DNA from: Aggregatibacter actinomycetemcomitans
GTDB lineage: Bacteria > Pseudomonadota > Gammaproteobacteria > Enterobacterales > Pasteurellaceae
DNA: 49,778 nt
Direction of reading: 5' to 3'
NCBI RefSeq assembly: GCF_003130205.1
Contig: NZ_NRDF01000014.1
Coordinates: 1 to 49,778 of the forward strand
Position numbers and translations under genes: made by a program. The first letter of the stretch is position 1, and every line of letters begins with the position of its first letter. Of this stretch, positions 6,468 through 46,329 are shown piece by piece. The notes beneath the pieces are model-generated. The model searched no databases. It was not told the origin of the DNA and worked only from the letters and a program-made list of their open reading frames with translations.

Positions 6468-6476
6468 TCTTGATAG

Positions 6477-6515
6477 GTGCGGTGTAAAAATACATTTTTT
6501 TATGACCGCACTTTT
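6477..6515 (+). terminator. USS-type hairpin terminator after the patatin-like gene
   Basis: GTGCGGT (6477-6483) pairs with ACCGCAC (6505-6511), extended inward by A- and T-rich arms and followed by TTTT. It begins ten bases after the stop of the patatin-like gene. Confidence 0.65.
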
Positions 6516-6592
6516 GCTTGCCTGTCGCACAAATATTGACTTCTCCCCTTTGCGTAGTAATATGCTCCCACTTTCCATTACAGACTTTTTTT

Positions 6593-7888
6593 ATGCTAGC
6601 GTTTTCACATCAGGAACATATTGAATCCTACTATTCCGTCACCCGTAACCAACATTTTGAGTTGCCGCCGTTAAGTCAAAAAGCATCCGCCGACGTTTGC
6701 GTGGTGGGCGCGGGCTTTTTCGGTTTATCCACCGCGCTGGAGCTTGCCGAGCAGGGCAAAAGCGTCATTGTGCTGGAAGGCGCACGGATAGGCTTCGGCG
6801 CTTCGGGTCGTAGCGGCGGACAGGCGATTAACGGGTTTGAAGACGGCATCGACGAATATATTGCGCAGGTGGGTTTGGAAACCGCCCGCAAGCTCTGGCA
6901 GATGTCGCTGGAAGCCATTGAGATTATTGATGAGCGCATTGCCAAATACGGCATTCAATGCGATTGGAAGAAAGGCTATGCCACCTTGGCGTTAAATGAA
7001 CGCCGCATGGAGGATCTCATCGCTATCGAAAAAGCCAGCCATGAGATTTTCGGCTATCAAAATATGCAGCTGTGGGATAAAGCCAAGCTGGAACAACATC
7101 TGGGCAGCAAAATTTATTACGGCGCGTTGTACGACAGCAATTCCGGGCATTTACACCCGCTCAATTATTGCCTCGGTTTGGCGAAAGCCTGTTTGGATCT
7201 GGGCGTGCGCATTTATGAGCAGTCGCCGGTAGTGGATTTACAGGAAAAAGCCACGGAAATTGAAGTGTTCACCGATCAAAGTTCGGTCATCGCCAAAGAT
7301 GTGGTGTTAGCGACCAACGCCTATATTGACGCCCTGCCGAAAAGCATTCACCACGGCATTGCGCGCAAAATTTTGCCGGTGGAAAGTTTTATTATCGCCA
7401 CCGAACCGTTGGATCAAGCCACCGCCGATTCGGTGATTAACAACGGAATGTCCGTGTGCGACAGCAATTATTTACTGGATTATTATCGTTTAAGCGCCGA
7501 TAACCGCTTGCTGTTCGGCAGCGACTCCAGTTCGGAAAAAGATATGATCGAAGTCATGCGCGGCAATATGTTGCACGTTTTTCCGCAGTTGGAACAGGTC
7601 AAAATTGATTACGGCTGGGGCGGGCCTATCGACATGACCATCAATTCCAACCCGCATTTCGGGCGCATTTCGCCGCATATTTATTTCGCGCAAGGCTATT
7701 CCGGACACGGCGTTGCGCTCACCGGTTTGGCGGGGCGCATTGTGGCGGAAGCCATTTTAGGCAACGACGAGCGTTTAATGATTTTCAGTCAATTAAAAGT
7801 GCCTTCCGTGTTCGGAGGCAAATTAGTGAAGAATCTGGCATTAAAAATAGGCATCAATTATTATCGTTTCTTAGATAAATATCGTTGA
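6593..7888 (+). CDS. FAD-dependent amine/amino-acid oxidoreductase (DAO family, PuuB/OrdL-like)
   Basis: A DAO-superfamily flavoprotein expected to oxidise an amine or D/imino acid in the cytosol. The N-terminal FAD-binding dinucleotide fold reads VVGAGFFGLSTALELAEQG. A GASGRSGGQ motif follows, and the C-terminal FAD motif SGHGVALTGLAGR lies near residue 380. I chose ATG 6593 (MLAFSHQEHIESYY, 431 residues) over an upstream in-frame start at 6518, because the upstream extension overlaps a terminator and adds residues not expected in the family. Overall it resembles gamma-glutamylputrescine oxidase and relatives, but no other putrescine-degradation gene is nearby, so the substrate is left open. 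An amino-acid ABC importer follows. Confidence 0.85.
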   Translation: MLAFSHQEHIESYYSVTRNQHFELPPLSQKASADVCVVGAGFFGLSTALELAEQGKSVIVLEGARIGFGASGRSGGQAINGFEDGIDEYIAQVGLETARKLWQMSLEAIEIIDERIAKYGIQCDWKKGYATLALNERRMEDLIAIEKASHEIFGYQNMQLWDKAKLEQHLGSKIYYGALYDSNSGHLHPLNYCLGLAKACLDLGVRIYEQSPVVDLQEKATEIEVFTDQSSVIAKDVVLATNAYIDALPKSIHHGIARKILPVESFIIATEPLDQATADSVINNGMSVCDSNYLLDYYRLSADNRLLFGSDSSSEKDMIEVMRGNMLHVFPQLEQVKIDYGWGGPIDMTINSNPHFGRISPHIYFAQGYSGHGVALTGLAGRIVAEAILGNDERLMIFSQLKVPSVFGGKLVKNLALKIGINYYRFLDKYR

Positions 7889-8013
7889 TTTTGTAGACAA
7901 ATTTTATTTCTTTTAGTTATACGATAGAGAAAATGATTATTTTATTCGGCGCAGATTTACTGTAATAATCCACCGCACTTTTCCTGTTATTAAGTAAAAT
8001 AAAGGAACGAATT

Positions 8014-8790
8014 ATGAAAAAATCCATTTTAGCAAAAGCATTACTGTTAGCCGGTTTAGCCCTCGGCATCGCCACGCAGGCGGCAGGCGAAATTTCCGAT
8101 CGCGTAGAAAAAACCAAAACCTTATTAGTGGGTACGGAAGGCACCTACGCCCCGTTCACCTTCCACGATGACAGCGGCAAATTAACCGGTTTTGACGTGG
8201 AAGTTATCGAATCTGTGGCGCAACGTTTAGGCTTAAAAATTCAATTTAACGAAACCCAATGGGATTCCATGTACGCCGGGTTAAACGCCAAACGTTTCGA
8301 CTTAATCGCCAACCAAACCAGCCCAAGCCCGGAACGCTTGAAAAAATACCTTTACACCGCGCCTTATAACTACTCCACAGCAGTTATCGTGACCAAAGAG
8401 AGCGATGACAGCATCAAAACCTTTGAAGATTTAAAAGGCAAAAAAGTGGCGCAATCCTTAACCAGTAACTACGGTAAAATCGCCAAAGCCAACGGCGCGG
8501 AATTGATTGTAGTGGAGGGTTTGGCGCAAGCCTTGAAACTCATCACACAAGATCGCGCACAAACCGTAGTAAACGACCAATTAGCCGTGTTGGATTACTT
8601 CAAAAAACAACCGAATGCCGGCTTAAAAATCGCGGTAAAACGCGATGAAAAAGTGCCTTCCGGTTTCGCCGTGTTAAAAGGTGAAGAGCCGTTGGTGGAA
8701 AAAATCAATCAGGCGCTGGAAGAATTACGAAAAGACGGCACCTTGAAGCAAATCTCAATTAAATGGTTCGGTGATGACATTACTCAATAA
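8014..8790 (+). CDS. Amino-acid ABC transporter substrate-binding protein (FliY/TcyJ-like, probably cystine)
   Basis: Periplasmic binding protein of a polar amino-acid importer. Residues 1-24 form a signal peptide with an A-x-A type end (TQAAG). The mature protein has the family-3 solute-binding motifs [21 protein letters not shown] and FEDLKGKKV, and ends with a [13 protein letters not shown] motif close to that of E. coli FliY/TcyJ. Length 258 residues. It is first in a binding protein-permease-ATPase operon. It is followed by a strong hairpin (8823-8850) that could give more binding protein than permease. Cystine specificity is inferred from similarity only. Confidence 0.88.
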
Positions 8791-9496
8791 TTTTCTCGCC
8801 TCCCTTCCCTTTATGAACGCAGAAAGAGCTGATGAAGTCATCAGCTCTTTTTGGCCTATGTTGGAAGCGGCAATTGATAAAACCATTCCGCTGGCAATTA
8901 TTTCCTTCTTTGCCGGTTTAGTGATTGCGTTGGGCGTGGCGGTGATTCGTACCATGCCGAAAAGCGGCATCGGTTTGCGTGTGTTGCAACTGCTTTGCCG
9001 CATTTATGTCTCCACCATTCGCGGCACACCGATGTTGGTGCAGATTTTCATTATTTTCTACGGCTTGCCGGAAGTGGGCATTAAACTGGATCCCTTTCCG
9101 ACGGCGATTATCGCCTTTTCCATTAATATCGGCGCCTACGCTTCGGAAACCATTCGCGCGGCGATTTTGTCTATTCCGAAAGGACAATGGGAAGCCTCCT
9201 ATTCTATCGGCATGAACTATTTCCAAACCTTCACCCGCACCATCATGCCGCAAGCCTTGCGCGTGTCCGTGCCGCCGCTGTCCAACACCTTCATCAGCAA
9301 CGTGAAAGACACATCATTAGCGTCTTTGGTGCTGGTGACTGAGATGTTCCGCGTGGCGCAAAACATCACAGCGGAAAACTATGAATTTATTATGATTTAT
9401 AGCGAAGCGGCATTAATTTACTGGTGTATTTGCCTGGTCTTGTCATTTTCGCAGGAACGCCTGGAAAAACGCCTGTCCCGCCACTTACAAGCCTAA
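8771..9496 (+). CDS. Amino-acid ABC transporter permease (TcyL/YecS-like)
   Basis: Inner-membrane permease of the amino-acid importer, 241 residues at the longest start. The EAA loop, which contacts the ATPase, is [24 protein letters not shown] (about residues 137-160; key part SIGMNYFQT), and [10 protein letters not shown] and KDTSLASL are HisM-family motifs. The longest frame starts at GTG 8771 or ATG 8774, overlapping the binding-protein gene. ATG 8813 would give a length closer to E. coli YecS, but no good ribosome site precedes any of them. The first codons contain a terminator-like hairpin (8823-8850). Confidence 0.88.
8823..8852 (+). terminator. Terminator-like hairpin inside the start of the permease gene
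   Basis: AAAGAGCTGATGA (8823-8835) and TCATCAGCTCTTT (8838-8850) are perfect complements, giving a 12-13 bp stem with a tiny loop, and the T run continues to 8852. It begins 32 bases after the stop of the binding-protein gene and lies within the permease reading frame. It is a candidate partial terminator or RNA-stabilising stem. Confidence 0.6.
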
Positions 9497-9505
9497 GGAA
9501 AGCCT

Positions 9506-10273
9506 ATGTTAGACGTTCATAACATTCATAAAACATTCAATAGCAATCAAGTACTGAAAGGGATCGATTTTCAGATTCAAAAAGGCGAAGTGGTGGCAAT
9601 TCTCGGTCCTTCCGGTTCCGGCAAAACCACGTTTTTACGCTGTTTAAATTTACTGGAACGCGCCGAACAGGGTACGTTGCGCTTCACCGACGGCAGCCTG
9701 GCGCTGGATTTCGCCAAAAAAATCAGCAAAGCCGACGAATTAAAACTGCGTCGCCGCTCTTCCATGGTGTTCCAGCAATATAATTTATTTCCTCATCGCA
9801 CCGCACTTGAGAACGTGATGGAAGGCATGCTTGTGGTGCAAAAGAAAAGCAAGGCGGAAGCGGAACAGCGCGCCGTTGAATTGCTCACCAAAGTAGGCTT
9901 AAAAGACAAAATACATTTATATCCGTCCCAACTGTCCGGCGGGCAGCAACAACGTGTCGGCATTGCACGCGCGTTGGCGGTGCAGCCGGACATTATTCTG
10001 CTGGACGAACCCACCTCGGCGCTGGATCCGGAATTGGTCGGCGAAGTGCTGCAAACCTTGAAATTACTGGCGCAGGAAGGCTGGACGATGATTATCGTTA
10101 CCCATGAATTGCAGTTTGCCCGCGATGTGGCGGATCGGGTGATTTTAATGGCGGACGGCAACGTGGTGGAACAAAACAGCGCACGCGAATTTTTTGAAAA
10201 CCCGCAACAGGAACGCACCAAACAATTTTTGTTGCAGGCAAAAATTCCGATCTGTGTGGAATATGAGATTTAA
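9506..10273 (+). CDS. Amino-acid ABC transporter ATP-binding protein (TcyN-like)
   Basis: ATPase that powers the preceding binding protein and permease. Walker A is GPSGSGKTT (about residues 34-42), the signature is LSGGQQQR, and Walker B with catalytic Glu is IILLDEPTSALDPE. The Q-loop motif is MVFQQYNLFPH, typical of the polar amino-acid subgroup. Its length of 255 residues is normal. The start at 9506 follows AAGGAAAG with a nine-base gap after the permease gene. It ends eight bases before the convergent tusB, whose coding region holds an apparent terminator for this operon. Confidence 0.93.
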   Translation: MLDVHNIHKTFNSNQVLKGIDFQIQKGEVVAILGPSGSGKTTFLRCLNLLERAEQGTLRFTDGSLALDFAKKISKADELKLRRRSSMVFQQYNLFPHRTALENVMEGMLVVQKKSKAEAEQRAVELLTKVGLKDKIHLYPSQLSGGQQQRVGIARALAVQPDIILLDEPTSALDPELVGEVLQTLKLLAQEGWTMIIVTHELQFARDVADRVILMADGNVVEQNSAREFFENPQQERTKQFLLQAKIPICVEYEI

Positions 10274-10281
10274 CCCGTCAC

Positions 10282-10569
10282 TTAAAGGGCGATTTGCGGA
10301 TAATATTGTTCGCTGATTGCCACAAAATCCGCTAAAGAAATCGACCGCACTTTTGTTGATGACGGCAAAAGTGCGGTTAAATTTCTCGCCAAAATATCTT
10401 CCTGCAGCACTATGCATTGCGCCTTACAGCGCGCCAATAAATCCGCTTGTTTTAACGCCAATAACACGCCGTCCTGCCACAGCACGACCGCATCCTGTGC
10501 GGTGGCATTCAGCAAATAACGTTCCAGTTCGGACGGGGAATAATGGGCTTGGGAAAAGGTATAAAGCAT
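10282..10569 (-). CDS. tusB: Sulfurtransferase complex subunit TusB
   Basis: A DsrH-type subunit of the TusBCD complex, which relays sulfur from TusA to TusE for 2-thiouridine formation at the wobble base of some tRNAs. It has 95 residues, the usual length. It begins two bases after tusC and is the last gene of a yheO-tusDCB operon, the same order as in enterobacteria. Odd point: two inverted USS copies (10344-10377) lie in its 3' half and encode LLPSSTKVRS. They form a strong hairpin where a terminator for the convergent ABC operon would be expected. Confidence 0.9.
   Translation of the reverse strand: MLYTFSQAHYSPSELERYLLNATAQDAVVLWQDGVLLALKQADLLARCKAQCIVLQEDILARNLTALLPSSTKVRSISLADFVAISEQYYPQIAL
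10344..10377 (+). terminator. USS inverted pair within tusB, likely terminator of the ABC operon
   Basis: ACCGCACTTTTG (10344-10355) and CAAAAGTGCGGT (10366-10377) form a perfect 12-bp stem with a 10-base loop. It lies 70 bases past the stop of the plus-strand ATPase gene but inside the minus-strand tusB frame. Confidence 0.6.
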
Positions 10570-10571
10570 AA

Positions 10572-10934
10572 TCAGAAAGTCAGAATTTTTTCACTTTGTT
10601 GCAGAATATTTATCAGCTGTTTGCGCGGCAACACCGCGCAATTTAACGATAAATCCTGCGCATGAAGTTGAAATTGTTGCAGGGAATCGGCACAAACATA
10701 ACGCCGTTCAATGTCGTATAAATCTAATAATTTTAATGCACTTGCCGTGTCTTTTTGCAAAATCAATTCCGCCTGTTGATGTTTTTGCAAATTCAACACA
10801 CCGTCATCCAAGAAAAACACCGCGATGTCCTCTTCCGTACAAAATGCCGTGGCGGCAAGCAACGCATCTAATCCTTCCCGTGTATTTGCCGTGCCATAAG
10901 GCGCATGACGAAAAATAAAGGCAAGTTTAATCAT
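10572..10934 (-). CDS. tusC: Sulfurtransferase complex subunit TusC
   Basis: A DsrF-type subunit of TusBCD. It has 120 residues, starting IKLAFIFRHAPYGTANTREGLDALLAA, of which FRHAPYG and AREGLD-like motifs are typical of TusC. It overlaps tusD by four bases and is followed by tusB, which supports coordinated translation of the hexameric complex. The partner genes tusA and tusE are not in this window. Confidence 0.92.
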   Translation of the reverse strand: MIKLAFIFRHAPYGTANTREGLDALLAATAFCTEEDIAVFFLDDGVLNLQKHQQAELILQKDTASALKLLDLYDIERRYVCADSLQQFQLHAQDLSLNCAVLPRKQLINILQQSEKILTF

Positions 10935-11308
10935 AGAGTGAGCACTCGATCGGCTTGTAACAGGGCTTGGCTGAATTCACCCAAGCCGGCAAGTTGAAAA
11001 ACGTCCGCCAGGTTAACCGCACTTTTATCGGCGGCAGAATCACTATCCACCACACCGCGTCGTTGAGCCGCGGCAACGCATAAATGCAGCGGCACGTTAA
11101 ATTGACGGGAAAATACCTGCCAGGCTTGGACTAAATTGAATTCGTCGTTGGCGGGATAAACCAAGGCGTTGCCGTTGTTCACGCCGTCCTGATAAAAAAA
11201 GATTTGGCGGATCTGATGTTTTTGCACCAACAGCTGTGCCAGTTGGTATGCCAAAAACGCACTTTGGCTGCCGTAAGCCGGTTGTTTCACCACCAACACA
11301 TAATCCAT
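10931..11308 (-). CDS. tusD: Sulfurtransferase complex subunit TusD
   Basis: A DsrE-type subunit carrying the active-site cysteine that holds the persulfide during sulfur relay. Cys77, in PLHLCVAAAQRRG, matches the catalytic Cys78 of E. coli TusD in context. It has 125 residues, near the usual 128. It is separated by three bases from the upstream YheO-like regulator gene, and overlaps tusC, so it belongs to one operon. A USS copy lies inside the gene near 11016. Confidence 0.92.
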   Translation of the reverse strand: MDYVLVVKQPAYGSQSAFLAYQLAQLLVQKHQIRQIFFYQDGVNNGNALVYPANDEFNLVQAWQVFSRQFNVPLHLCVAAAQRRGVVDSDSAADKSAVNLADVFQLAGLGEFSQALLQADRVLTL

Positions 11309-11311
11309 GGC

Positions 11312-11980
11312 TTATTCATCCTGATCCTGTTTAATTTGACGAATATATAAATACACGGTATGACGGGAAATATTGAGACGTTCCGCCACTAAATTGATGG
11401 CATCTTTAATGTCGAAAATGCCTTTTTCATATAGAGAAACGACAATTTGACGGTTTTTGTTATTATTCGCCACCATGCGATCGGCAGTGATCTCCTCAAT
11501 GGTTTTCCCCACAGTTTGCACTACCAGTTCTTCTACCGAGCTGGCAAAATTCACCGCTGAGGTTTCTCGGTGATCGGGGGTTGGGATAAAATTTTGCAGA
11601 AATTGCGACACCGGCACGTCTAAATTAATGTTGATACAAAGCAAGCCGATGATACGCTTTGTACTGTTGCGAATAGCGATGGTTACCGACTTCATCAAGC
11701 CACTATTTTTCTCCTCATTGATAAAATAAGGTTTACTGACGCTGTCCGATTTCATCTCGTGCAATGAACGCAAAGCAAAATTCGTTATAGGCGAACCCAC
11801 CTGACAGTTGGTATTATGCCCGTTGGCGATATAAATGGCGGAATGTTCTAAATCCTCAAAGGAATGTAAAACGATTTCGCAATGTTGCCCGATAAGCGCA
11901 CTCACGCCGTCAACCACGGCAATATAAGAATTTAAAATGGTGCGATCTTCGTCAGTAAAAGGTCGTTTATCCGCTAACAT
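11312..11980 (-). CDS. yheO: YheO-like transcriptional regulator (PAS-like + HTH)
   Basis: A putative DNA-binding regulator of 222 residues. Residues 1-120 form the YheO-type PAS-like domain (IVDGVSALIGQHCEIVLHSFEDLEHSAIYI region; key motif EIVLHSFED). The C-terminus (about 175-220) is a helix-turn-helix, RLNISRHTVYLYIRQIK. In gamma-proteobacteria it is regularly the gene before tusDCB, as here. Its ligand and target are not known to me. A USS-pair terminator (12018-12048) separates it from fkpA. Confidence 0.88.
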   Translation of the reverse strand: MLADKRPFTDEDRTILNSYIAVVDGVSALIGQHCEIVLHSFEDLEHSAIYIANGHNTNCQVGSPITNFALRSLHEMKSDSVSKPYFINEEKNSGLMKSVTIAIRNSTKRIIGLLCININLDVPVSQFLQNFIPTPDHRETSAVNFASSVEELVVQTVGKTIEEITADRMVANNNKNRQIVVSLYEKGIFDIKDAINLVAERLNISRHTVYLYIRQIKQDQDE

Positions 11981-12017
11981 GAAAGAACGTGTTTATTGTT
12001 ATAAGCCACTAGAAATA

Positions 12018-12048
12018 ACCGCACTTTCGCTTGTCGGAAAAGTGCGGT
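12018..12048 (-). terminator. USS inverted-pair hairpin after fkpA
   Basis: ACCGCACTTT (12018-12027) pairs with AAAGTGCGGT (12039-12048). It starts twelve bases past the fkpA stop on the minus strand. The T-rich tail on the minus strand is weak, so termination may be partial. Confidence 0.6.
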
Positions 12049-12059
12049 CGTTTTTCAGG

Positions 12060-12785
12060 TTATTTCGCCGGGGTGACATCCAACACTTCCACATCAAAGT
12101 GAAGTGTGGAATGCGGTGGAATTTTATCGCCCGCGCCGTCTTCACCGTATGCCAAATCCGCCGGAATGACCAACTCGATTTGTCCGCCTTTTTTGATTAA
12201 TTGCAAGCCTTCGGTCCAACCTTTAATCACTTGATTTAACGGGAATTCGGCAGGCGTACCGCGCTCGCGGGAGCTGTCGAATACAGTGCCATCCGGCAAT
12301 TTACCGGTATAGTGAACTTTAACCATATCGGTGGCTTTAATGACATCACCGGACCCTTCTTTTTCCACACGATATAACAAGCCGGAGGCAGTTTTCTTCA
12401 CGCCATCTTTCTTAGCAAATTCTACCGTGAATTTTTTGCCTTCTTCTTCCGCTTTTTTCACCATGGCGGCAACACGTTTTTCATTTTCCGCTTTTAACTT
12501 GGCATTAATGCCTTGCAAAGCAGAGGCGATTTCTTTGTTGCCTTCCAATTTTACTTTGCCGTTTAACACGTCAGAAATCCCGGCAATCACTTTCGCATTG
12601 TTGTAATCAATCATGCCTTTTTGTGCGTTAATTAAGCCTTGTAAATCGGAACCGAATAATACGCCCACCGCGTAAGAGGAATCATCGGTGAATTTTGCAT
12701 CATTTTTGCTTTCCGCCAAAACACCGCTAGAAATGACCGCACTTAAAATCAGCACCGGCACTGAAATTTTCTTCATTTTTAACAT
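12060..12785 (-). CDS. fkpA: FKBP-type peptidyl-prolyl cis-trans isomerase (periplasmic chaperone)
   Basis: Helps fold periplasmic and outer-membrane proteins. A signal peptide ends near residue 25 (SSGVLAES). An N-terminal helical dimerisation segment spans about residues 30-125, and the FKBP domain follows, with VKVHYTGKLPDGTVFDSSRERG, GWTEGLQLI, LAYGEDGAGDKIPPHSTLHFDVE as landmarks (quoted motifs: VHYTGKLPDGT, IPPHSTLHF). The start at 12785 was preferred over the next Met three codons on, because AAGGAT lies eight bases before it. It is divergent from slyX, an arrangement also seen in E. coli. Confidence 0.93.
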   Translation of the reverse strand: MLKMKKISVPVLILSAVISSGVLAESKNDAKFTDDSSYAVGVLFGSDLQGLINAQKGMIDYNNAKVIAGISDVLNGKVKLEGNKEIASALQGINAKLKAENEKRVAAMVKKAEEEGKKFTVEFAKKDGVKKTASGLLYRVEKEGSGDVIKATDMVKVHYTGKLPDGTVFDSSRERGTPAEFPLNQVIKGWTEGLQLIKKGGQIELVIPADLAYGEDGAGDKIPPHSTLHFDVEVLDVTPAK

Positions 12786-12873
12786 TGGGTTCTATCCTTT
12801 ATAATAAGTAAAAAATGCGTTGAATAGGGTAAAACGGATTCAACAAATTCACAACAGTTATTTAGGAAATATT

Positions 12874-13095
12874 ATGTCGATACAACAAAATTTAGCGCAG
12901 CGTATCACCGAATTGGAGATGAAAACAACCTTTCAGGAAACTGTCATTGAAGAATTGAATCAGGCATTGGTTGAACAACAATTTATTCTGGATAAAATTC
13001 AGCTCCAGTTACGTTATCTGGCGAATAAAATACAAAATATACAGCCTTCCAATATCGCCAGCCAAGCAGAAGAAACCCCGCCACCGCATTATTAA
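12874..13095 (+). CDS. slyX: SlyX family protein
   Basis: A small cytosolic coiled-coil protein of unknown role. The 73 residues are rich in Leu, Ile and Glu heptads (QRITELEMK-type start, [11 protein letters not shown]) and end with the P-P-H-Y tail typical of SlyX. I chose ATG 12874 ([15 protein letters not shown]) because AGGAA stands before it; the frame could extend upstream to 12820 without support. It ends at a terminator shared with the convergent peroxiredoxin gene. Confidence 0.9.
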
Positions 13096-13154: not shown

Positions 13155-13883
13155 TTATTTCGCGAAATACGCTTCTAAATCATCACTCCCACCGATGTGT
13201 TTACCACCGATGAAGACTTGTGGCACAGTCGCACGACCGGAAATCGCACGTACGCTCACGATAGTCGCATCGTGACCTAACACGATTTCCTCAAAGCTCA
13301 AGCCTTTTTCGTGTAACATTTGTTTTGCTTTTGCACAGAACGGACAACCCGGTTTAGTGAAGATCGTAATAGATTCTTGAACTTGGTGTTGCGGTGCAAG
13401 GTACTTCAACATGGTGTCGGCATCGGACACTTTGAACGGATCACCCGGTTCGTTTGGTTCGATAAACATTTTTTCTACTACGCCATTTTTCACCAGCATA
13501 GAATAACGCCATGAACGTTTGCCAAAACCTAAATCTTCTTTTCCTACCAACATGCCCATGCCTTCGGTGAACTCGCCATTACCGTCCGGAATGAAAGTAA
13601 TGTTGTCGGATTTTTCATCTTCTTTCCATGCATTCATCACGAATGTATCATTCACGGAAATTACAAGAATATCATCAACACCGTATTTTTTGAATACCGG
13701 CGCTAATTCGTTATAACGTGGTAAATGGGAAGAAGAACAAGTCGGGGTGAATGCACCCGGTAAAGAGAAAACGATAACGGTTTTATTATCAAATAATTCG
13801 GATGTAGTGACATCAATCCATTGGTCGCCTTGACGCGTACGGAATGTCACTTGAGGAACTTTTTTACCTTCCATATTAGACAT
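13155..13883 (-). CDS. Hybrid peroxiredoxin-glutaredoxin (PGdx type)
   Basis: A fusion of a Prx5-type peroxiredoxin and a glutaredoxin that reduces peroxides with glutathione in the cytosol; this domain fusion is well known in Haemophilus influenzae. The peroxidatic Cys49 lies in [12 protein letters not shown], and the C-terminal glutaredoxin has CPFC at residues 180-183, followed by [14 protein letters not shown]. The start at 13883 (MSNMEGKK) follows an AGGAG ribosome site; an upstream in-frame codon has none. It is 242 residues long and divergent from oxyR, suggesting peroxide-responsive control. Confidence 0.95.
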
Positions 13884-37915: not shown

Positions 37916-38962
37916 TTAATTCGTTTTCAACTTATTCCAATATTTTTCATAAATATCAATGGCGTTGCCCACATCGCCTTGAATAATGCCTTTTTCCACC
38001 TGCTCTTCCGGCGGGAATAAGGTCGGGTTGTTTGCCATTTCCGGCGAGATTAATGGTTTTACGCCGTTGTTCGGCATGGAATAACCCAAGCGCTCCAGAA
38101 CCACTTTGGCGTTTTCCGGACGTAGCAGGAAGTCGATGAATTTATAGGCGTTTTCGACATTTTTCGCGCTTTTCGGAATGGCATAGTTATCCATCCAGAA
38201 AATGGCGCCTTCTTTCGGATAAACAAATTGAATATTTTCGTTCTCACGGTGTGCCATATAGGCGGAACCGTTCCAAATCATGCCCAGCGCCACTTCGCCC
38301 TGCACATAAGGTACTTCCGGCGAGTCGGAGTTAAACACGGCGACGTTCGGCAATAATTTTTCCAACCGTTCGTAAGCGGCTTTGATTTCGTCTTCGTTGG
38401 TGGTGTTCGGTGATTTTCCGTCTAACAATAACGCCACATGAAACACTTCGCGCGCATCACTAGTGAGCAATACTTTGCCTTTGTATTCCGGGTTCCACAA
38501 ATCTGACCAGCTGATGATTTTGTTGACGTCAATATCTTCCGAGTTCACAGCGATACCGGTTAAACCGTACACATAGGGCAGGGAATAGTCGTTATTCGGG
38601 TCGAAATCTTTGTGCAATAAATTGTCCGGAATTTGTTTGAAATTGCTTAACTTGCCATGATCCAATTTTTGCAGCATACCGTCTTGCGCCATTTTGTTCA
38701 CATAATAGCTGGACGGGAAAACCAAGTCATAACCGGCATTGTCGGAAATCAGTTTAAGTTTGGCGTACATTTCCTCGTTGCTTTCAAAGGTAGAATAAAT
38801 CACTTCAATGCCGGTCTCTTTAGTAAATTCGGCAATGAGATTGGAAGGAACGTAGTCGGTCCAGTTATAAACGTAAAGTTTTTCTTGCGCAAAAGTGGTG
38901 GTGGAAAGGAAAGTTAGGGCTAAACAAAGGGATTTTAATGTTTTTGCAAACAAATTTTTCAA
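37916..38962 (-). CDS. potD: Spermidine/putrescine ABC transporter substrate-binding protein
   Basis: A periplasmic polyamine-binding protein, 348 residues. A signal peptide ends near residue 25 (STTTFAQE). PotD motifs are [26 protein letters not shown], and [19 protein letters not shown], with aromatic and acidic residues that contact polyamines in the family. No potA, potB or potC is adjacent, so it is an orphan that presumably serves a transporter elsewhere. GGAGGAC lies before the start. Confidence 0.92.
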
Positions 38963-39266
38963 TTTATTGTCCTCCGGAGCTAAAAATAGCGAGCGGTTAA
39001 ATTTTATCAGGAAACTGAGTAAAAACTCGGCGGGCAGTATAGCAGATTTTAAACGCTTGTCCCGTAGTTTTATGAAGGCATTGCGCCGTTTTGCCCATAA
39101 AGTGCGGTGGGTTTTTTGATTATTTCTGATTTTCGAAGTGGTTAAAATTTCCCTCTGTACTTTTTTAAAACAAAGTTGTCTGAAAGATCGATAAGGTATA
39201 GATGATTTCGCCTGTGTAAAAATATTATATAATAGCCAACAAAAAGGTAATCAGTCAGGAAAAACT
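38963..39266. other. Intergenic region between potD and hsdR
   Basis: Has one USS near 39100 and AT-rich DNA with a TATAAT at 39228-39233 that may serve hsdR, though no matching -35 is clear. No gene is supported. The base composition changes sharply at about 39265, where the GC-rich hsd genes begin. Confidence 0.5.
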
Positions 39267-39928
39267 ATGTCCCAAACCCACAACGAAAACTCCCGTGTAA
39301 AAATCCCCACCGTACTGCACCTGATGCGGCTGGGCTACCGCTATCTTTCGCTAAAAACCGTAACATGGGACAAGCAGACCAATATCTTTCCCGACATCTT
39401 CACCGAGAGCCTGTGCCGCATCAATCCCAACCTATCGCCGGATGACACACGCCGCCTGCTGACCGACATCACCATCGAGCTGGACAACGAAGACTTGGGG
39501 CAACAATTTTACGAACGCCTCATAAGCCGCTCCGGCATCAAGCTGATCGATTTCCAAAATTTCGACAACAACCGTTTTCACGTCGTAACCGAACTGCCCT
39601 GCATCAACGGCGACGAAGAATTCCGCCCCGACATTACCCTGCTGGTAAACGGTATGCCGCTGATCTTTGTCGAAGTCAAAAAGCCCAACAACAAAGGCGG
39701 CATCGGCGCAGAACGCGAGCGGATGGCAAAGCGCGCGCAAAATCCCAAGTTCCGCCGCTTTATCAACATCACCTAATTCATGGTTTTTTCCAACAACATG
39801 GAATACGACGACGGCGCAACCGAGCCGGCGCAGGGCGCGTTTTACGCCTCATCCGCCTACGGCAGCCCCGCGTTCAACTACTTCCGCGAAGAACACAAAC
39901 TCAACCTTGCCGAGCTTTTAGACACCCT

Positions 39929-39940
39929 TTCAGACGACCT
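39929..39940 (-). repeat. Neisseria-type DNA uptake sequence
   Basis: AGGTCGTCTGAA on the minus strand, a perfect 12-mer matching the AG-muc dialect of the Neisseria DUS, within hsdR. Confidence 0.8.
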
Positions 39941-40995
39941 TGCAAACACCGTCCTGCAAGACAACAACCTGTCTGTCATCAAACACAGTCCCGAATTTGT
40001 CAGCAACAAATCTCCCGACACACCAACCAACCGCATCCTGACCTCTCTGCTGTGCCGCGACCGCCTCGCCTTTCTCCTGCAATACGGCTTGGCATACGTC
40101 GAAACACAAAACGGCATACAAAAACACATCATGCGCTATCCGCAGCTTTTCGCCGCCTACGCCACTGAAAAACACCTGACCAACGGCGGCAGAAAAGGCG
40201 TCATCTGGCACACACAAGGCTCCGGCAAAACCGCGCTTGCCTACTACAGCACCCGCTATCTGACCCGCCATTACGCCAAACAGGGCATCGTGCCCAAATT
40301 CTATTTCATCGTGGACAGGATCGACCTCTTGAAACAGGCGCAGCAGGAATTTACCGCCCGCGACCTCGTCGTCCACACCATCGACAGCCGCGAAGCCTTC
40401 GCCGCCGACATCAAATCCGCCCAAACCCTGCACAACCATTCCGGCAAAGCGGAAATCACCGTCGTCAACATCCAAAAATTCAAAGACGACCCCGACGTCG
40501 TCGCTAAAAACGACTACAACCTCGCCATCCAGCGCGTCTATTTCCTCGACGAAGTACACCGCAGCTACAATCCCAAAGGCTCATTTTTAGCCAACCTCAA
40601 CCAGTCCGACGTAAACGCCGTCAAAATCGGGCTGACCGGCACGCCGCTTATCGGCGTAACTGCAGGCAGCGTCAACACCCGCGAACTCTTCGGCGACTAC
40701 ATCCACAAATACTATTACAACGCCTCCATCGCCGACGGCTACACCCTGCGCCTCATCCGCGAAGCCATCAGCTGCCGGTACAAAGCCCAATTGCAGGCAA
40801 CATTGGCGCAGCTTGAAATCGAAAAAGGCAGCTTTGAGCGCAAAGTCATCTACGCCCATCCGCACTTCGTTCGCCCGATGCTCGACTACATCCTCGACGA
40901 CTTCGTCAAATTCCGCAAAACCAACCAAGACGACAGCACGGGCGCCATGATTATCTGCGACAGCGCAGAGCAGGCGCGGCAGATGTACGCCCATT

Positions 40996-41007
40996 TTCAG
41001 ACGACCT
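40996..41007 (-). repeat. Neisseria-type DNA uptake sequence
   Basis: A second perfect AGGTCGTCTGAA on the minus strand within hsdR. Confidence 0.8.
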
Positions 41008-42285
41008 CGGACCACAAATTCACCGCCACCCTGATACTGCACGATGTCGGCAGCAAAGACGAGCGCGACCAATGGGTCAAAGACTTCAAAGCCGGCAAAA
41101 CAGACCTTCTTTTCGTGTACAACATGCTGCTGACCGGCTTTGATGCTCCGCGCCTGAAAAAACTCTACTTGGGCAGACTCATCAAAGCCCACAACCTTTT
41201 ACAGACCCTCACCCGCGTCAACCGCACCTACAAAAACTACCGCTACGGCTACGTCGTCGATTTTGCCGACATCCAAAGCGAATTCGACAAAACCAACCGC
41301 GCCTATTGGGACGAGCTGACCAACGAGTTGGGCGACGAAATCGGCAGCTACAGCCAACTTTTCAAAACCGCCGAAGAAATCGAACAGGAAATCGCCAACA
41401 TCAAAGCCGCTCTGTTTGACTTCGACACTGAAAACGCCGAGGTCTTTTTCAGCCAAATCAACCAAATAAAAGACAAAACCCAGTTGCTCGCCCTCAAAAA
41501 AGCCCTGCAAACCGCCAAAGAGCTGTATAACATCCTGCGCCTGCAAGGCGACTATGAATTTCTAGAGCATCTCGATTTCGACAAACTCAACCTCCTATAC
41601 CGCGAAACCGCCGCCCGCATCGACACCCTGAACCTTTTCGAAAAACTACAACAGGGCGACACCGCACACCTGCTCAACGAAGCCCTGGAAGACATCTGGT
41701 TCCACTTCGTCAAAACCGGCTAAGCCGAGCTTAAACTCGCCGACGATTTAAAAGATATCATGCGCAAAGTCCGCGAAGGGCTGGCGGGCAACTTCGACCA
41801 AGTAGACCCCGAATTCATCAGCCTGCGCGAAGAACTGGAACGCATCTTCAAGAAAAAGAACCTCGCCGAAGTCGGACAAGACGACATGAAAACCAACATC
41901 GGCATACTCGAAACCGTCTATGCCAAAATCAAAGAGCTCAACCGCAAAAACGACCTACTGCGGCACAAATACCACGGCGACGCCAAATACGCCCGCATCC
42001 ACAAACGCCTGCTGGAAAACCCTGCCCTCTACGGCGACAAACAAAAAGTCTTCGACGCGCTCAACGGCGTAAAAACTGATGCCGACCAAAAAGTGCTGGA
42101 TATGGAACAGATATTGGACAACCAAACCTACTTTGAAAAACAAATGCAGGGCATTGTACTGAAACGCTTTCGGACAGAACAAAAATTCCCCGTCCAACCT
42201 GCAGACATCCAAGCCATCAACCGCCTGCTGGTGCGCGAATACTTGCAAGAGGGCGGGCGGCAGATATAGGGCGGTTCAGTTGTAA

Positions 42286-42414
42286 ACTTTAGGGTTACAA
42301 CTGCTGCAAGGCAAAGGCGAACGTTATATTGCCGAACCTGAAAAAATAACAGAGTATCAATATGGTAGGTATCCTGAAAAAGTGCGGTTGGATATTGAGA
42401 ATATTTTCAGATGA
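42286..42414 (+). pseudogene. Unidentified gene remnant between hsdR and hsdS
   Basis: A frame without a start codon reads about 42 residues (ending in GRYPEKVRLDIENIFR and a stop). It looks like the tail of a lost gene; I do not recognise the family. A complete USS (42380-42388) lies in it, the only one between 39267 and 45312, so this segment seems native to Pasteurellaceae. Confidence 0.35.
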
Positions 42415-42437
42415 TCTTTGAAGAGAAATAAAATTTT

Positions 42438-43610
42438 ATGAATGAATTACAAGATTGTATTTTAGGTGATTTGGTAGAGTTCCAACGTGGATATGATTTA
42501 CCAAAAGATGCTTTTGTAAAAGGCGAATATCCTGTTCAATCTTCCAACGGAATTTTGGGTTATCACAATGAATATAAAGTTAAAGCACCTGGAATCACGA
42601 TTGGGAGAAGTGGAACAGTCGGTATTCCGCATTTAATAACAAAAAACTTTTTTCCGCATAATACAGCATTGTATGTAAAAGATTTTAAGGGTAATAACGT
42701 CCAATATATTTATTACCTATTGAAAAATTTAAAATTAAATGAATATAAAACTGGTTCTGGTGTTCCAACCATGAACCGAAATCATCTGCATCCGTTAAAA
42801 ATCAGAGCGTTCACCGACCTCAAAACCCAACAATCGATCGTCGCCGTCCTCTCCGCCTTGGACAAAAAAATCGCCCTGAACAAACAAATCAACGCGCGCT
42901 TGGAAGAGATGGCGAAAACCCTGTACGACTACTGGTTCGTGCAGTTCGACTTCCCCGACGCGAACGGCAAACCCTACAAATCCTCCGGCGGCGAAATGGT
43001 CTTTGACGAAACCCTGAAACGGGAGATTCCGAAGGGGTGGGAGGTGAAGAGTTTATGGAAAATAGCAAAATATTTTAATGGATTAGCTTTACAAAAATAT
43101 CGCCCTGAGAATGAATTTTCTGATTTTTTTTCAGTTATTAAAATCAGAGAAATGAATGAAGGTATTTCTTCAAATACTGAAAGAGCAAGCACAGACATCC
43201 CAAAAGAAGCAATTATTGATGACGGAGATATTTTATTTTCTTGGTCTGCAACTTTGGAAATTAAAATTTGGTCGCAAGGTAAAGGTGCGCTAAATCAGCA
43301 TATTTTCAAAGTAACTTCTGCGGTATACCCAAAATACTTCTATTATTTTGAATTATTGAATTACTTAAAACATTTTAAAATGATAGCTGATTTAAGAAAA
43401 ACAACAATGGGACATATTACCCAAGACCATTTAAAACAAGCATATATTTGTATTCCATCTAATAGTCTATTAGAAAGATTGGAAGAAATTATTGAGCCTA
43501 TTTTTCAAAAAATTCTAATAATGCAAAAACAAAACCACCACCTGACCCAATTGCGCGATTTCCTGCTGCCCATGCTGATGAACGGGCAGGTTTCCGTGGC
43601 GGAAGAGTAG
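42438..43610 (+). CDS. hsdS: Type I restriction-modification specificity subunit S
   Basis: A DNA-recognition subunit, 390 residues, with an intact frame. Two target-recognition domains (residues about 1-120 and 205-350) alternate with conserved coiled-coil spacers: QSIVAVLSALDKKIALNKQINARLEEMAKTLYDYWF (about 133-170; key part ALDKKIALNKQINARLEEM) and LTQLRDFLLPMLMNGQ at the end. The spacers are GC-rich like hsdR and hsdM, whereas the recognition domains are strongly AT-rich, so this is a mosaic gene as expected from domain swapping. With M and R broken it probably has no function alone in this strain. Confidence 0.92.
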   Translation: MNELQDCILGDLVEFQRGYDLPKDAFVKGEYPVQSSNGILGYHNEYKVKAPGITIGRSGTVGIPHLITKNFFPHNTALYVKDFKGNNVQYIYYLLKNLKLNEYKTGSGVPTMNRNHLHPLKIRAFTDLKTQQSIVAVLSALDKKIALNKQINARLEEMAKTLYDYWFVQFDFPDANGKPYKSSGGEMVFDETLKREIPKGWEVKSLWKIAKYFNGLALQKYRPENEFSDFFSVIKIREMNEGISSNTERASTDIPKEAIIDDGDILFSWSATLEIKIWSQGKGALNQHIFKVTSAVYPKYFYYFELLNYLKHFKMIADLRKTTMGHITQDHLKQAYICIPSNSLLERLEEIIEPIFQKILIMQKQNHHLTQLRDFLLPMLMNGQVSVAEE

Positions 43611-43711
43611 TTCGGGCATTAATGCCCGGCCTGGGGCTTCCAAATCCGACCGCGCTTTTCAGTCCGCCATGTGAAGCTAAAACCGAAATAAAAAACAAAC
43701 GAACCAAAAAA

Positions 43712-45312
43712 ATGACCGAACTGTATTTCACCGAACAAACCAAAACCTTAATCGACAGCCTGAAAACCATCTGTGCCCACTACGGCTTGGGCAACGACGG
43801 CAACGAGTTCAAAATCATCAGTCAGGCTTTTCTGTATAAATTCTTAAACGACAAATACGATTTCGAAGTCAAAAAAATCCTCGAAGAAAAGCCCGGCGAG
43901 CCGATGGAATTCGTCGATATGGAGATTCAGAGCAAAACGGCGGTATTGAAGCCAGAGCATTCCATCCGCTATCTGTCGCAAAGGCAAAACGATGCGGATT
44001 TTGCCAAATTGTTCGACGATACCTTAATCGACATTGCCGCGCATAATGCAGAGGTATTCGCGGTGAAAACCGAGGGCGGGGCGAAAATCGTGCTGTTCGA
44101 GCGCATCGGCCAATATATCGCCGATGAAAACCGCCGCGACGATTTTTGCCGTGCGCTGATTTCCAAATTGGCGGATTTCAGCTTCGAGACAATTTTTGCG
44201 CAAAAATTCGATTTTTTTGCCACGATTTTCGAATACCTGATTAAAGACTACAACAGCAATTCGGGCGGCAAATATGCCGAATATTACACGCCGCACGCAG
44301 TGGCACGGATTATGGGGGATATTCTGGTGCCGCAGGTGTTGCGCGGTCAGATGCAGCGTGGACGTGTACGATCCGTCGGCGGGTTCGGGAACATTGCTGA
44401 TGAACGTGGCGCACGCCATCGGCGAAGACAAATGTATGATTTATACGCAGGATATTTCGCAAAAATCGTCCAACCTGTTGCGCCTGAATCTGATTTTGAA
44501 CAATCTGGTGCATTCGCTGAACAATGTGATTCAGGGCAATACGATTTTGTCGCCCTACCACAAGGACAAAACAGGTCGTCTGAAAAAATTCGATTTCATC
44601 GTTTCCAATCCGCCGTTTAAATTGGATTTCAGCGATTTCCGCGACCAATTGGACAGCGCGGAAAACCGCGAACGTTTTTTTGCGGGGATTCCGAAAATCA
44701 AGGCGAAAGATACGGATAAGATAGAAATCTACCAGCTTTTTATCCAACATATCCTGTTCAGCCTGAAAGAAAACGGCAAGGCGGCGATTGTATTGCCGAC
44801 GGGCTTTATTACCGCCCAATCGGGCATAGACAGAAAAATCCGCGAATATCTGGTGGACAATAAAATGCTCGCCGGCGTGGTGTTCATGCCTTCCAATATT
44901 TTCGCCACCACGGGAACCAATGTTTCCATCCTGTTTATCGACAAAACCAATAAAGACAAAGTGGTCTTAATCGACGCGTCGGGCTTGGGCGAAAAAATCA
45001 AAGACGGCAAAAACCAAAAAACCGTACTTTCCCGCGAAGAAGAACAAAAAATCTGCCAAACGTACGGACAAGCAGGCAGTGGAAGATTTCAGCGTGGCAG
45101 TAGGCTACGATGAAATCCAAGCGAAAAACTACAGCCTCTCGGCAGGGCAGTATTTCGAGGTGAAAATCGATTATGTGGATATTTCCGCCGATGAGTTCGA
45201 GCAGAAAATGGCGGCGTTTTCCGCTGATTTGGACCGGCTTTTTGCGGAGTCTGTCGAATTGGAGCGGGAAATTGGGGAGAAGTTGCAGATGTTGAGGTTT
45301 GGGGAAAAGTAG
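43712..45312 (+). pseudogene. hsdM: Type I DNA methyltransferase subunit M (two frameshifts)
   Basis: Three frames in series make one HsdM of about 532 residues. The start is at 43712 (MTELYFTEQTKTLIDSL). The first shift (about 44354) lies just before DPSAGSGT, the AdoMet-binding motif I; the catalytic motif NPPF is in the second frame (FDFIVSNPPFKLDF). The second shift (about 45066) lies before QAVEDFSVAVGYDEI; the C-terminal helices are in the third frame. Each needs a +1 or -2 correction. The AdoMet motif, catalytic motif and N-terminal domain thus cannot be made as one chain, so methylation should be lost. A Neisseria-type uptake sequence lies at 44573-44584. Confidence 0.9.
44573..44584 (+). 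repeat. Neisseria-type DNA uptake sequence
   Basis: AGGTCGTCTGAA, a third perfect copy, inside hsdM. Confidence 0.8.
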
Positions 45313-45350: not shown

Positions 45351-45412
45351 AAGTGCGGTCTATTTTCAGAGCGTTTTTCAATGTGAAAAACACTGGAAAA
45401 AACCACCGCACC
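45351..45412 (+). terminator. Nested hairpins after hsdM
   Basis: An inner perfect stem GTTTTTCA/TGAAAAAC (45373-45380, 45384-45391) lies inside an outer imperfect USS pair (AAAGTGCGGT near 45351 and ACCGCACCTTT near 45404). The outer right arm carries a one-base insertion. Confidence 0.5.
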
Positions 45413-45492: not shown

Positions 45493-46329
45493 TTACGCCA
45501 GGGTGCCTGTCCAGGCGCCGAAGATGCCGATGACGAAGAAGCCGACGATAATCCATAGGGCGTTTACCCGATTGCGCAACAGCCACATACAGGCGAAGGT
45601 GAGCAACAACGCCAGTAAGCCCGGCATGAGACTGTCTAAGATGCTTTGTACGGTGGTGACCTCAACAGTGCCGTTTTGTTTTGTGATGGTGGAAACTACT
45701 AACGGTACGTTAATACTGGTCCATTTTTGCACCAGGGCGCCCATGATGAACAAACCGAGGATTGACGCGCCTTCGGTAAGTTTTTGCAATAAGCCGCCGC
45801 TCATGTCGCTGACCACGTCCAACCCTTTACGGTAGCCGTAAATTACGCCGTAGTAACGGGTGGCGAGACGCACGAGGTTAAATAAAACGAAGAACAGAAT
45901 CGGCCCTAAAATGCTACCATTTAATGCCACGCCTGCGCCGAGTGCGGCGAAAACCGGGCGTGCGGTCCCCCAATAAATCGGGTCACCTACACCGGCAAGG
46001 GGACCCATGAGACCCACTTTAATCCCGTTGATGGCGGCATCTTCCACCGGTTTGCCATTGGCACGCTGTTCTTCCATGGCAATTGCCACGCCTAATACGG
46101 GGGCGCCGACGAAAGGCTGGGTGTTGAAAAATTCCAGGTGGCGTTTAATGGCGTCTTTGCGTTCTTGCGAATCCTGTACCGGGTATAGCCGTTTAATTAC
46201 CGGCACCATGGAATAGGCAAAGCCCAGCGCCTGCATGCGTTCGAAGTTCCATGAACCTTGGAACAGATTAGAGCGCATTACGACGGCATTCAAATCACTT
46301 TTTGTTACTTTTCTTATTTCGGTTGTCAT
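45493..46329 (-). CDS. manZ: PTS system mannose-family IID component
   Basis: A membrane component that forms the sugar channel with IIC. The 278 residues start with ITKSDLNAVVMRSNLFQGSWNFERMQALGFAYSMVPVIKRLY-like sequence (key motifs RSNLFQGSWNFERMQ, GFAYSMVPVIKRLYP), followed by DEINGIKVGLMGPLAGVGDPIYWGT-type motif GLMGPLAGVGDPI, all typical of IID. It is the last gene of the operon, 14 bases after manY. Confidence 0.95.
   Translation of the reverse strand: MTTEIRKVTKSDLNAVVMRSNLFQGSWNFERMQALGFAYSMVPVIKRLYPVQDSQERKDAIKRHLEFFNTQPFVGAPVLGVAIAMEEQRANGKPVEDAAINGIKVGLMGPLAGVGDPIYWGTARPVFAALGAGVALNGSILGPILFFVLFNLVRLATRYYGVIYGYRKGLDVVSDMSGGLLQKLTEGASILGLFIMGALVQKWTSINVPLVVSTITKQNGTVEVTTVQSILDSLMPGLLALLLTFACMWLLRNRVNALWIIVGFFVIGIFGAWTGTLA

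Follow-up and report, generated by a model that had tools for sequence, protein, structure and literature searches.

A decayed type I restriction–modification tract with Neisseria-type DNA uptake sequences in an Aggregatibacter chromosome

How did a type I restriction–modification (R-M) locus in a Pasteurellaceae chromosome come to carry the DNA uptake sequence (DUS) of Neisseria? The locus lies at positions 39267–45312 of a 49,778-nucleotide stretch of Aggregatibacter DNA (contig NZ_NRDF01000014.1), referred to here as the window, and comprises hsdR, hsdS and hsdM. A first-pass annotation had proposed natural transformation from an oral commensal Neisseria into this chromosome. Our comparisons lead to an account that we regard as probable, in which the tract is a decayed type I cassette of Neisseriaceae derivation that entered the ancestry of the A. 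actinomycetemcomitans group and was inactivated afterwards. At the level of sequence comparison, the Neisseria-type ancestry of the tract is well supported.

Orthologous DUS in Aggregatibacter and Neisseriaceae

Three perfect copies of the 12-mer AGGTCGTCTGAA were located, two in hsdR (39929..39940 and 40996..41007, both on the minus strand) and one in hsdM (44573..44584, plus strand), exactly where the first-pass annotation had placed them. The word did not occur in 100 dinucleotide-preserving shuffles of the window. In the 2.17-Mb genome (39 contigs) it has 10 copies at four places, and a reversed control word has none, so the words are not background. Their assignment to the AG-muc dialect agrees with an excerpt of PMC3630211 (Frye 2013), in which AG-mucDUS differs from AT-DUS by T/G at position −1 and C/T at position +2, yielding AGGTCGTCTGAA; the carriers named there are N. 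mucosa ATCC25996, N. sicca and N. macacae.

The HsdR fragment was searched against a collection of species genomes and matched A. actinomycetemcomitans (94% protein identity), Cardiobacterium hominis (89%) and A. kilianii PN_528 (88%), with the other 77 among the best 80 of 285 confirmed matches at no more than 66%. Among these best 80, the single nearest relative was A. actinomycetemcomitans DSM 8324 (locus L006). Within 83 Neisseriaceae genomes (the family of a Snodgrassella genome, one genome per species), four gave HsdR matches of 87–89% (G085, G086, G094 and G087); the match in G094 covers part of the query and that in G087 falls into two pieces (87 and 77%). Relatives are therefore not confined to the Pasteurellaceae, although the nearest is still a Pasteurellaceae copy. 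At the DNA level, the window hsdR is 93.7% identical to that of A. actinomycetemcomitans and 84.1–86.5% identical to the other six copies (84–86% for the Neisseriaceae copies), while A. kilianii hsdR is 94.0% identical to that of C. hominis and 90.9–93.9% identical to the four Neisseriaceae copies. In an HsdR tree of 88 rows built by a quick method, the eight copies (three Aggregatibacter, C. hominis and four Neisseriaceae) form one clade with a Shimodaira–Hasegawa-like approximate likelihood ratio support of 100. The window pairs with L006 (support 99), and the base of the clade is a three-way fork, with the window pair and G086 as two branches and a group of the remaining five copies (support 92) as the third.

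All three DUS sites are orthologous across these eight copies, occurring as AGGTCGTCTGAA or AGGCCGTCTGAA. Site 1 is AG-muc in the window, L006, A. kilianii, C. hominis, G094 and G087 and AG-DUS in G086, with one mismatch in G085. At site 2 the three Aggregatibacter copies have AG-muc, C. hominis, G085, G094 and G087 have AG-DUS, and G086 has one mismatch. Site 3 has the AG-muc form in G094 and every Aggregatibacter copy and the AG-DUS form in C. hominis, G085 and G086, with G087 one mismatch away. Each basal lineage thus has exact sites 1 and 3, and two of the three also have an exact site 2 (one mismatch in G086). Because sites 1 and 3 are exact in every basal lineage, the DUS are very likely older than the first split of the clade, judging from the alignment. 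The DUS 10-mer was found at the two hsdR sites in 0 of 77 outgroup loci, and the 1.36 Mb of those loci contain no 12-mer of either AG form. The tract therefore behaves as DUS-marked DNA, with 12-mers above chance that are orthologous in Neisseriaceae homologues and absent from outgroups, the last point tested at the two hsdR sites only.

The host uptake signal sequence (USS) core AAGTGCGGT shows the opposite pattern. It occurs 41 times in the 49.8-kb window, or once per 1.2 kb, and is missing from hsdR, hsdS and hsdM, where 5.3 copies would be expected at the outside density (Poisson P = 0.005). These parts of the first-pass claim hold; the interval as a whole is not free of USS, as one copy lies at 42380 in the hsdR–hsdS spacer (1 versus 5.5 expected, P(≤1) = 0.026). 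Codon use was compared with tables from mechanically called open reading frames (ORFs; 36 host and 37 Neisseriaceae). Neisseria-like codon use was evident for hsdR (log-odds 0.32–0.33, 0/36 host ORFs as high) and weak for hsdM (0.07–0.08, again 0/36), but did not extend to the A+T-rich hsdS (−0.15, 17/36 host ORFs as high; 36.7% G+C).

Gene decay and chromosomal site

In addition to what the first-pass annotation described, tblastn alignment revealed that hsdR and hsdM are broken. The hsdR gene (39267..42269, plus strand; Pfam HSDR_N, SWI2_SNF2, ResIII and T1R_D3-like, PADLOC REase_I) is interrupted by in-frame TAA codons at 39774 and 41721 when aligned with the intact HsdR of A. kilianii (87.8% identity, 1000 amino acids). 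Compared with the intact HsdM of that species, the hsdM gene (43712..45312, plus strand; N6_Mtase matches by Pfam in two frames) shifts frame twice, near 44356 and 45065. The A+T-rich hsdS gene (42438..43610, plus strand; Pfam Methylase_S, PADLOC Specificity_I, blastn) has an open frame, and its central part is conserved at 92–97% identity to relatives by blastn, with no match in G094. Because hsdR and hsdM are broken, the window copy is most likely unable to restrict. In L006, hsdR has a frame change at a place other than the window's and hsdM is open. Both genes are open in A. kilianii, C. hominis, G085 and G086 and only partly matched in G094, while G087 has a frame change in hsdR and a stop in hsdM.

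The locus contains the same three subunit families as a typical type I R-M system (HsdR, HsdM and HsdS by Pfam and PADLOC), but not all are intact; it also has the order R-S-M and carries rhuM remnants between R and S. These probable remnants of a rhuM-type gene (42269..42379, plus strand) were recognized from blastn pieces at 42269–42308 and 42308–42425 matching L004, the C. hominis NCTC10426 locus (genome G061). The gene is whole between hsdR and hsdS in L006 and L004 (Pfam Virulence_RhuM).

On its left the tract is bordered by an extracellular solute-binding protein gene that adjoins the atp operon (37916..38962, minus strand) and on its right by a phosphotransferase system (PTS) operon, represented by a mannose-family IID gene (45493..46329, minus strand). 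Host USS stand directly outside both edges (39100..39108 and 45351..45359, plus strand). A. actinomycetemcomitans DSM 8324 has the tract at the same site, with 93–94% identity running through the flanks; the acquisition is therefore not particular to this chromosome, unlike in the first-pass proposal. Supported parts of that proposal are the Neisseriaceae relatives with DUS at the same positions, the excess of the words over background and the Neisseria-like codon use of hsdR. In A. kilianii the tract is at a different site, and only ~68 bases upstream of hsdR (39199–39266) are common with the window; the Aggregatibacter hsd copies have a short upstream stretch in common. The 28 pairs among the eight hsd loci include only two with long shared flanks, window/L006 and G086/G087. 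The latter two Neisseriaceae loci (L120 and L122) hold the tract at a common site and share ~1.4 kb of downstream flank.

The interval between the flanking genes is variable among Aggregatibacter genomes. G004, which does not have the tract, carries a TonB receptor gene, an iron alcohol dehydrogenase gene and two more ORFs between the same flanks, and its stretch homologous to the right-edge USS region comes after another gene. In G007 the genes flanking the site are >20 kb apart. A tRNA search of the window was negative, and the window genes searched on either side, which are part of the full set, gave no match to an integrase or phage family.

Doubly tagged segments and DUS across the genus

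The USS in the spacer (42380..42388, plus strand) is of the full Hin type, with the core AAGTGCGGT followed by two downstream A/T tracts. Its flanks were scored with a profile built from 290 Aggregatibacter USS, for which the genuine sites average 11.0 and random Aggregatibacter positions −14.0. The spacer USS scored from 10.5 in the window (38th percentile of genuine sites) to 20.6 in L006. It is orthologous in L004, L005, L006 and the Neisseriaceae genomes G085 and G086 and missing in G094 and G087. The G085 and G086 flanks scored 19.4 and 18.9, at the 88th percentile of the 290 sites, and 0 of 6000 random positions in four Neisseriaceae loci scored as high. About 18 bases after the USS follows an inverted DUS (42406..42417, minus strand); the doubly tagged spacer measures ~40 bases. 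This DUS is worn in the window, two transitions away from the AG-muc 12-mer. C. hominis has it exactly as AG-muc, G086 as AG-DUS and A. kilianii in the AT-DUS form, while G085 and L006 are one mismatch away. Because the double tag is present in all three basal lineages, it may be ancestral to the eight known copies. Locus L006 has two tandem versions of the USS–DUS spacer between rhuM and hsdS (13530–13716), the second with an altered USS core.

For a count of USS we took nine hsd and cas loci from Neisseriaceae, set the tract borders by hand after viewing, and enlarged the outside portion by eleven more Neisseriaceae loci. There were 13 in 63 kb inside the tracts compared to 4 in 148 kb outside (Fisher p 0.0001), and the reversed control word occurred once inside and twice outside in the nine main loci. 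A loose pattern of USS and inverted DUS core within 35 bases was present in 16/83 Neisseriaceae and 44/140 Pasteurellaceae genomes, with none for the reversed control. A rough chance estimate based on word frequencies in small samples of loci is 1.1 and 1.8 per genome, respectively. The loose pattern is not above this rough chance level in either family, and a general fusion of USS with inverted DUS is unsupported. Two nearly identical USS–DUS strings, ~120 bases apart, occur in a Pasteurellaceae genome (G166:C13:80523–80692) and a Neisseriaceae genome (G111:C1:2234756–2234925), a resemblance that hints at another exchanged segment.

The AG-muc word was found in 42 of 140 Pasteurellaceae genomes. 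All nine Aggregatibacter genomes have it, with 2–19 copies each and 89 in total, and the reversed control was absent. The other Pasteurellaceae have 63 copies in 33 of 131 genomes, at most 7 per genome, compared to 18 for the reversed control. A Pasteurellaceae background rate was accordingly rejected as the source of the Aggregatibacter words.

In the window genome, all 11 AG-form DUS 12-mers (ten AG-muc and one AG-DUS) lie in or beside defence-type genes. Besides the two in hsdR and one in hsdM, they occur at three loci. Locus L001 (G000:C11:57000–76000) holds a DUS-tagged block at 6120–13050 that combines type I-C cas genes with the remnant of a type III R-M system. Two of its words fall in cas8c, and cas7, a type III restriction gene and an ORF that has the end of a type III methyltransferase have one each. 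L002 (G000:C33:110000–128000, 5600–12600) contains another type I-C-like cluster of cas genes (Cas3, Cas5 and Cas1), whose two 12-mers lie in cas3 and 146 bases before the cas1 start. L003 (G000:C34:74000–90000, 6490–8457) is a Mokosh-like AAA helicase gene of 655 amino acids with one 12-mer.

The notion that DUS tracts are always defence genes is true for the window genome and false for the genus. We hand-picked 30 DUS-near ORFs, taken from seven Aggregatibacter genomes besides that of the window and from G201, a further Pasteurellaceae genome. Thirteen are of defence type, one of them (L161) by a general helicase match only, and 17 are not, including flavin mononucleotide (FMN) oxidoreductases, LysR, malic enzyme, LigB, NmrA and MutS. 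DUS-tagged clusters with FMN oxidoreductase or LysR genes in other Aggregatibacter (L138, L139, L148 and L153) contain intergenic inverted DUS pairs 17–54 bases apart, positioned like Neisseria terminators. C. hominis NCTC10426 has 12 AG-form DUS 12-mers at few places, including one inverted pair whose 168-base spacing is also seen in cas4 of other genomes; Cardiobacterium may therefore hold further Neisseria-type tracts.

The type I-C cas operon was compared across thirteen queried copies, of which G002 and G004 had no DNA match and eleven were aligned. The DUS at L001:10521 is exact in 10/11 copies, and a coding USS at L001:10894 is present in 8/11, including two of the five Neisseriaceae copies (G112 and G091). 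The flanks of this coding USS are middling (6.8–6.9, compared to a genuine mean of 10.1, sd 7.4). Behind cas7, G112 and G091 have a second USS with good flanks (16.6 and 15.7). Three Neisseriaceae genomes have copies of cas8c with 88% identity to that of L001, and in some of them the DUS and USS are orthologous.

Competing histories of the tract

We propose that the ancestral type I R-M cassette resided in a DUS-using Neisseriaceae host and would have entered the A. actinomycetemcomitans lineage before the window species and the A. actinomycetemcomitans type strain split. There it would have settled between the solute-binding-protein gene and the PTS operon before being inactivated by the hsdR stops and hsdM frame changes. 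The intact form found elsewhere in A. kilianii and in C. hominis has 90–94% hsdR DNA identity to the Neisseriaceae copies, and the cassette would therefore have moved more than once among oral bacteria. Intact copies presumably act as ordinary type I enzymes, in which S picks the site, M methylates and R cuts unmethylated DNA. Natural transformation is the most likely route and the simplest carrier, because both tags belong to competence systems and the genes searched included no mobile ones. No donor species was found among the 83 Neisseriaceae genomes searched.

Several observations weigh against this account. Approximately unbiased (AU) tests rejected neither one Aggregatibacter clade (p 0.098) nor one Neisseriaceae clade (p 0.077), so polyphyly of the Aggregatibacter copies is not significant. 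The window and A. kilianii hsdR are 86.5% identical, like the flanking host genes between both genomes (83–89%). Together with the ~68 shared upstream bases, this makes one old acquisition within Aggregatibacter, followed by later exchange, possible. Dialect was counted in the four hsd-bearing Neisseriaceae genomes, and none is AG-muc-dominated: AG-DUS and AG-muc counts are 2809 and 147 in G085, 2399 and 132 in G086, 2757 and 334 in G094, and 191 and 78 in G087. The closest copy thus does not come from an AG-muc-dominated Neisseria genome, a weak test with one genome per species. In favour of the account, the AG-DUS counts of the first three genomes (2399–2809) resemble Neisseria counts in the PMC3630211 excerpt. 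Whereas the word at the window's hsd sites is identical to the 12-mer of the AG-mucDUS species described there, the hsd-bearing Neisseriaceae are AG-DUS-dominated (three) or untyped (G087). The window hsdR has 53.8% G+C compared to 47.4–49.9% in the Neisseriaceae copies, so the direct donor would not be among those sampled. No exact empty site was found in the genomes compared (G004 and G007). Finally, the history was probably not a simple one-way transfer, because a complete Pasteurellaceae USS is present in two of the four Neisseriaceae copies.

This last point leads to an extension of the account, in which both uptake tags let the competence machinery of either family take up the cassette and exchange was repeated and two-way. 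We find this nearly as easy to accept as to doubt, leaning slightly towards doubt. It would explain the full extended USS followed by inverted DUS in the G085 and G086 spacers, the concentration of USS inside Neisseriaceae hsd and cas tracts, and the type I-C cas operon as a second case with USS in G112 and G091. However, the USS is missing from two of four Neisseriaceae hsd copies and three of five cas copies, the coding cas USS has middling flanks, the loose USS–DUS pattern is not above chance in either family, and the spacer alone could have been exchanged. USS-bearing DNA also gave no significant transformation of N. meningitidis, according to the excerpt of PMC3630211. More tentatively still, type I R-M and type I-C CRISPR–Cas cassettes of the mouth might be 'bilingual', with uptake signals of two families at conserved positions and transformation maintaining one defence pool shared by Neisseria and Aggregatibacter.

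A different carrier, such as conjugation, a phage or an integrative element, would leave the DUS as mere marks of origin. Type I R-M loci are often carried on islands, and the region between the flanking genes does vary, but the absence of a tRNA and of integrase or phage families among the genes searched, and the restriction of long shared flanks to 2/28 locus pairs, make this unlikely. We judge it very unlikely that the locus is native to Aggregatibacter and acquired its DUS after a transfer to Neisseria and Cardiobacterium. The spacer USS is present in all four gammaproteobacterial and two Neisseriaceae copies, across the three basal lineages, and the nearest relative among the best 80 of 285 matches is a Pasteurellaceae copy, and both points favour this direction. 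It would not account for exact DUS at all three sites in a branch made up of Aggregatibacter only (window and L006), with no known pressure to gain DUS there, nor for the lack of USS in the three genes and the Neisseria-like codon use of hsdR. Chance words in a G+C-rich gene and contamination of the assembly merit practically no credence. The shuffles and the genome-wide control reject chance, and both readings are refuted by the shuffles, by orthologous words in seven other loci and by the tract that A. actinomycetemcomitans carries, with diverged sequence (93%), at the same site.

Gene exchange between families that is recognizable by foreign uptake words is already known. Kroll et al. (1998) reportedly recognized exchange of chromosomal genes between Haemophilus and Neisseria by the uptake word of the other family. 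Like the hsd tract, that exchange involved oral or respiratory beta- and gammaproteobacteria with a foreign word as the marker; here, the DUS are in Pasteurellaceae DNA, occur in 9/9 Aggregatibacter genomes and partly in defence genes, and form orthologous tags in both families. In another precedent, the autB/lav autotransporter, transferred from Haemophilus to Neisseria, both uptake words occur at one locus: the excerpt of PMC5635059 describes USS by flanking gene remnants in autB-positive meningococci and DUS in the spacer of autB-null strains, and its introduction refers to Davis 2001 for DUS at the borders of the gene. The hsd tract differs in direction and gene type; its USS and DUS share one piece of DNA with ~18 bases between them, and copies from both families carry the USS. 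Exchange with H. influenzae is called rare in the PMC3630211 excerpt, and the doubly tagged cassette could be an exception to this Neisseria–H. influenzae uptake barrier. Among titles and abstract openings in the open-licence literature, we found no report of DUS in Aggregatibacter or of doubly tagged defence cassettes.

Uptake words are thought to keep the two families apart. Here they serve as provenance marks of DNA that crossed between two classes of Proteobacteria, and such crossings were found in every Aggregatibacter genome searched, with defence systems among them, which suggests that defence genes pass between the Aggregatibacter and Neisseria groups. Doubly tagged loci would allow a direct test of whether uptake specificity acts as a barrier or a passport, and counting DUS offers a cheap map of Neisseria-derived genes in Aggregatibacter and its relatives.

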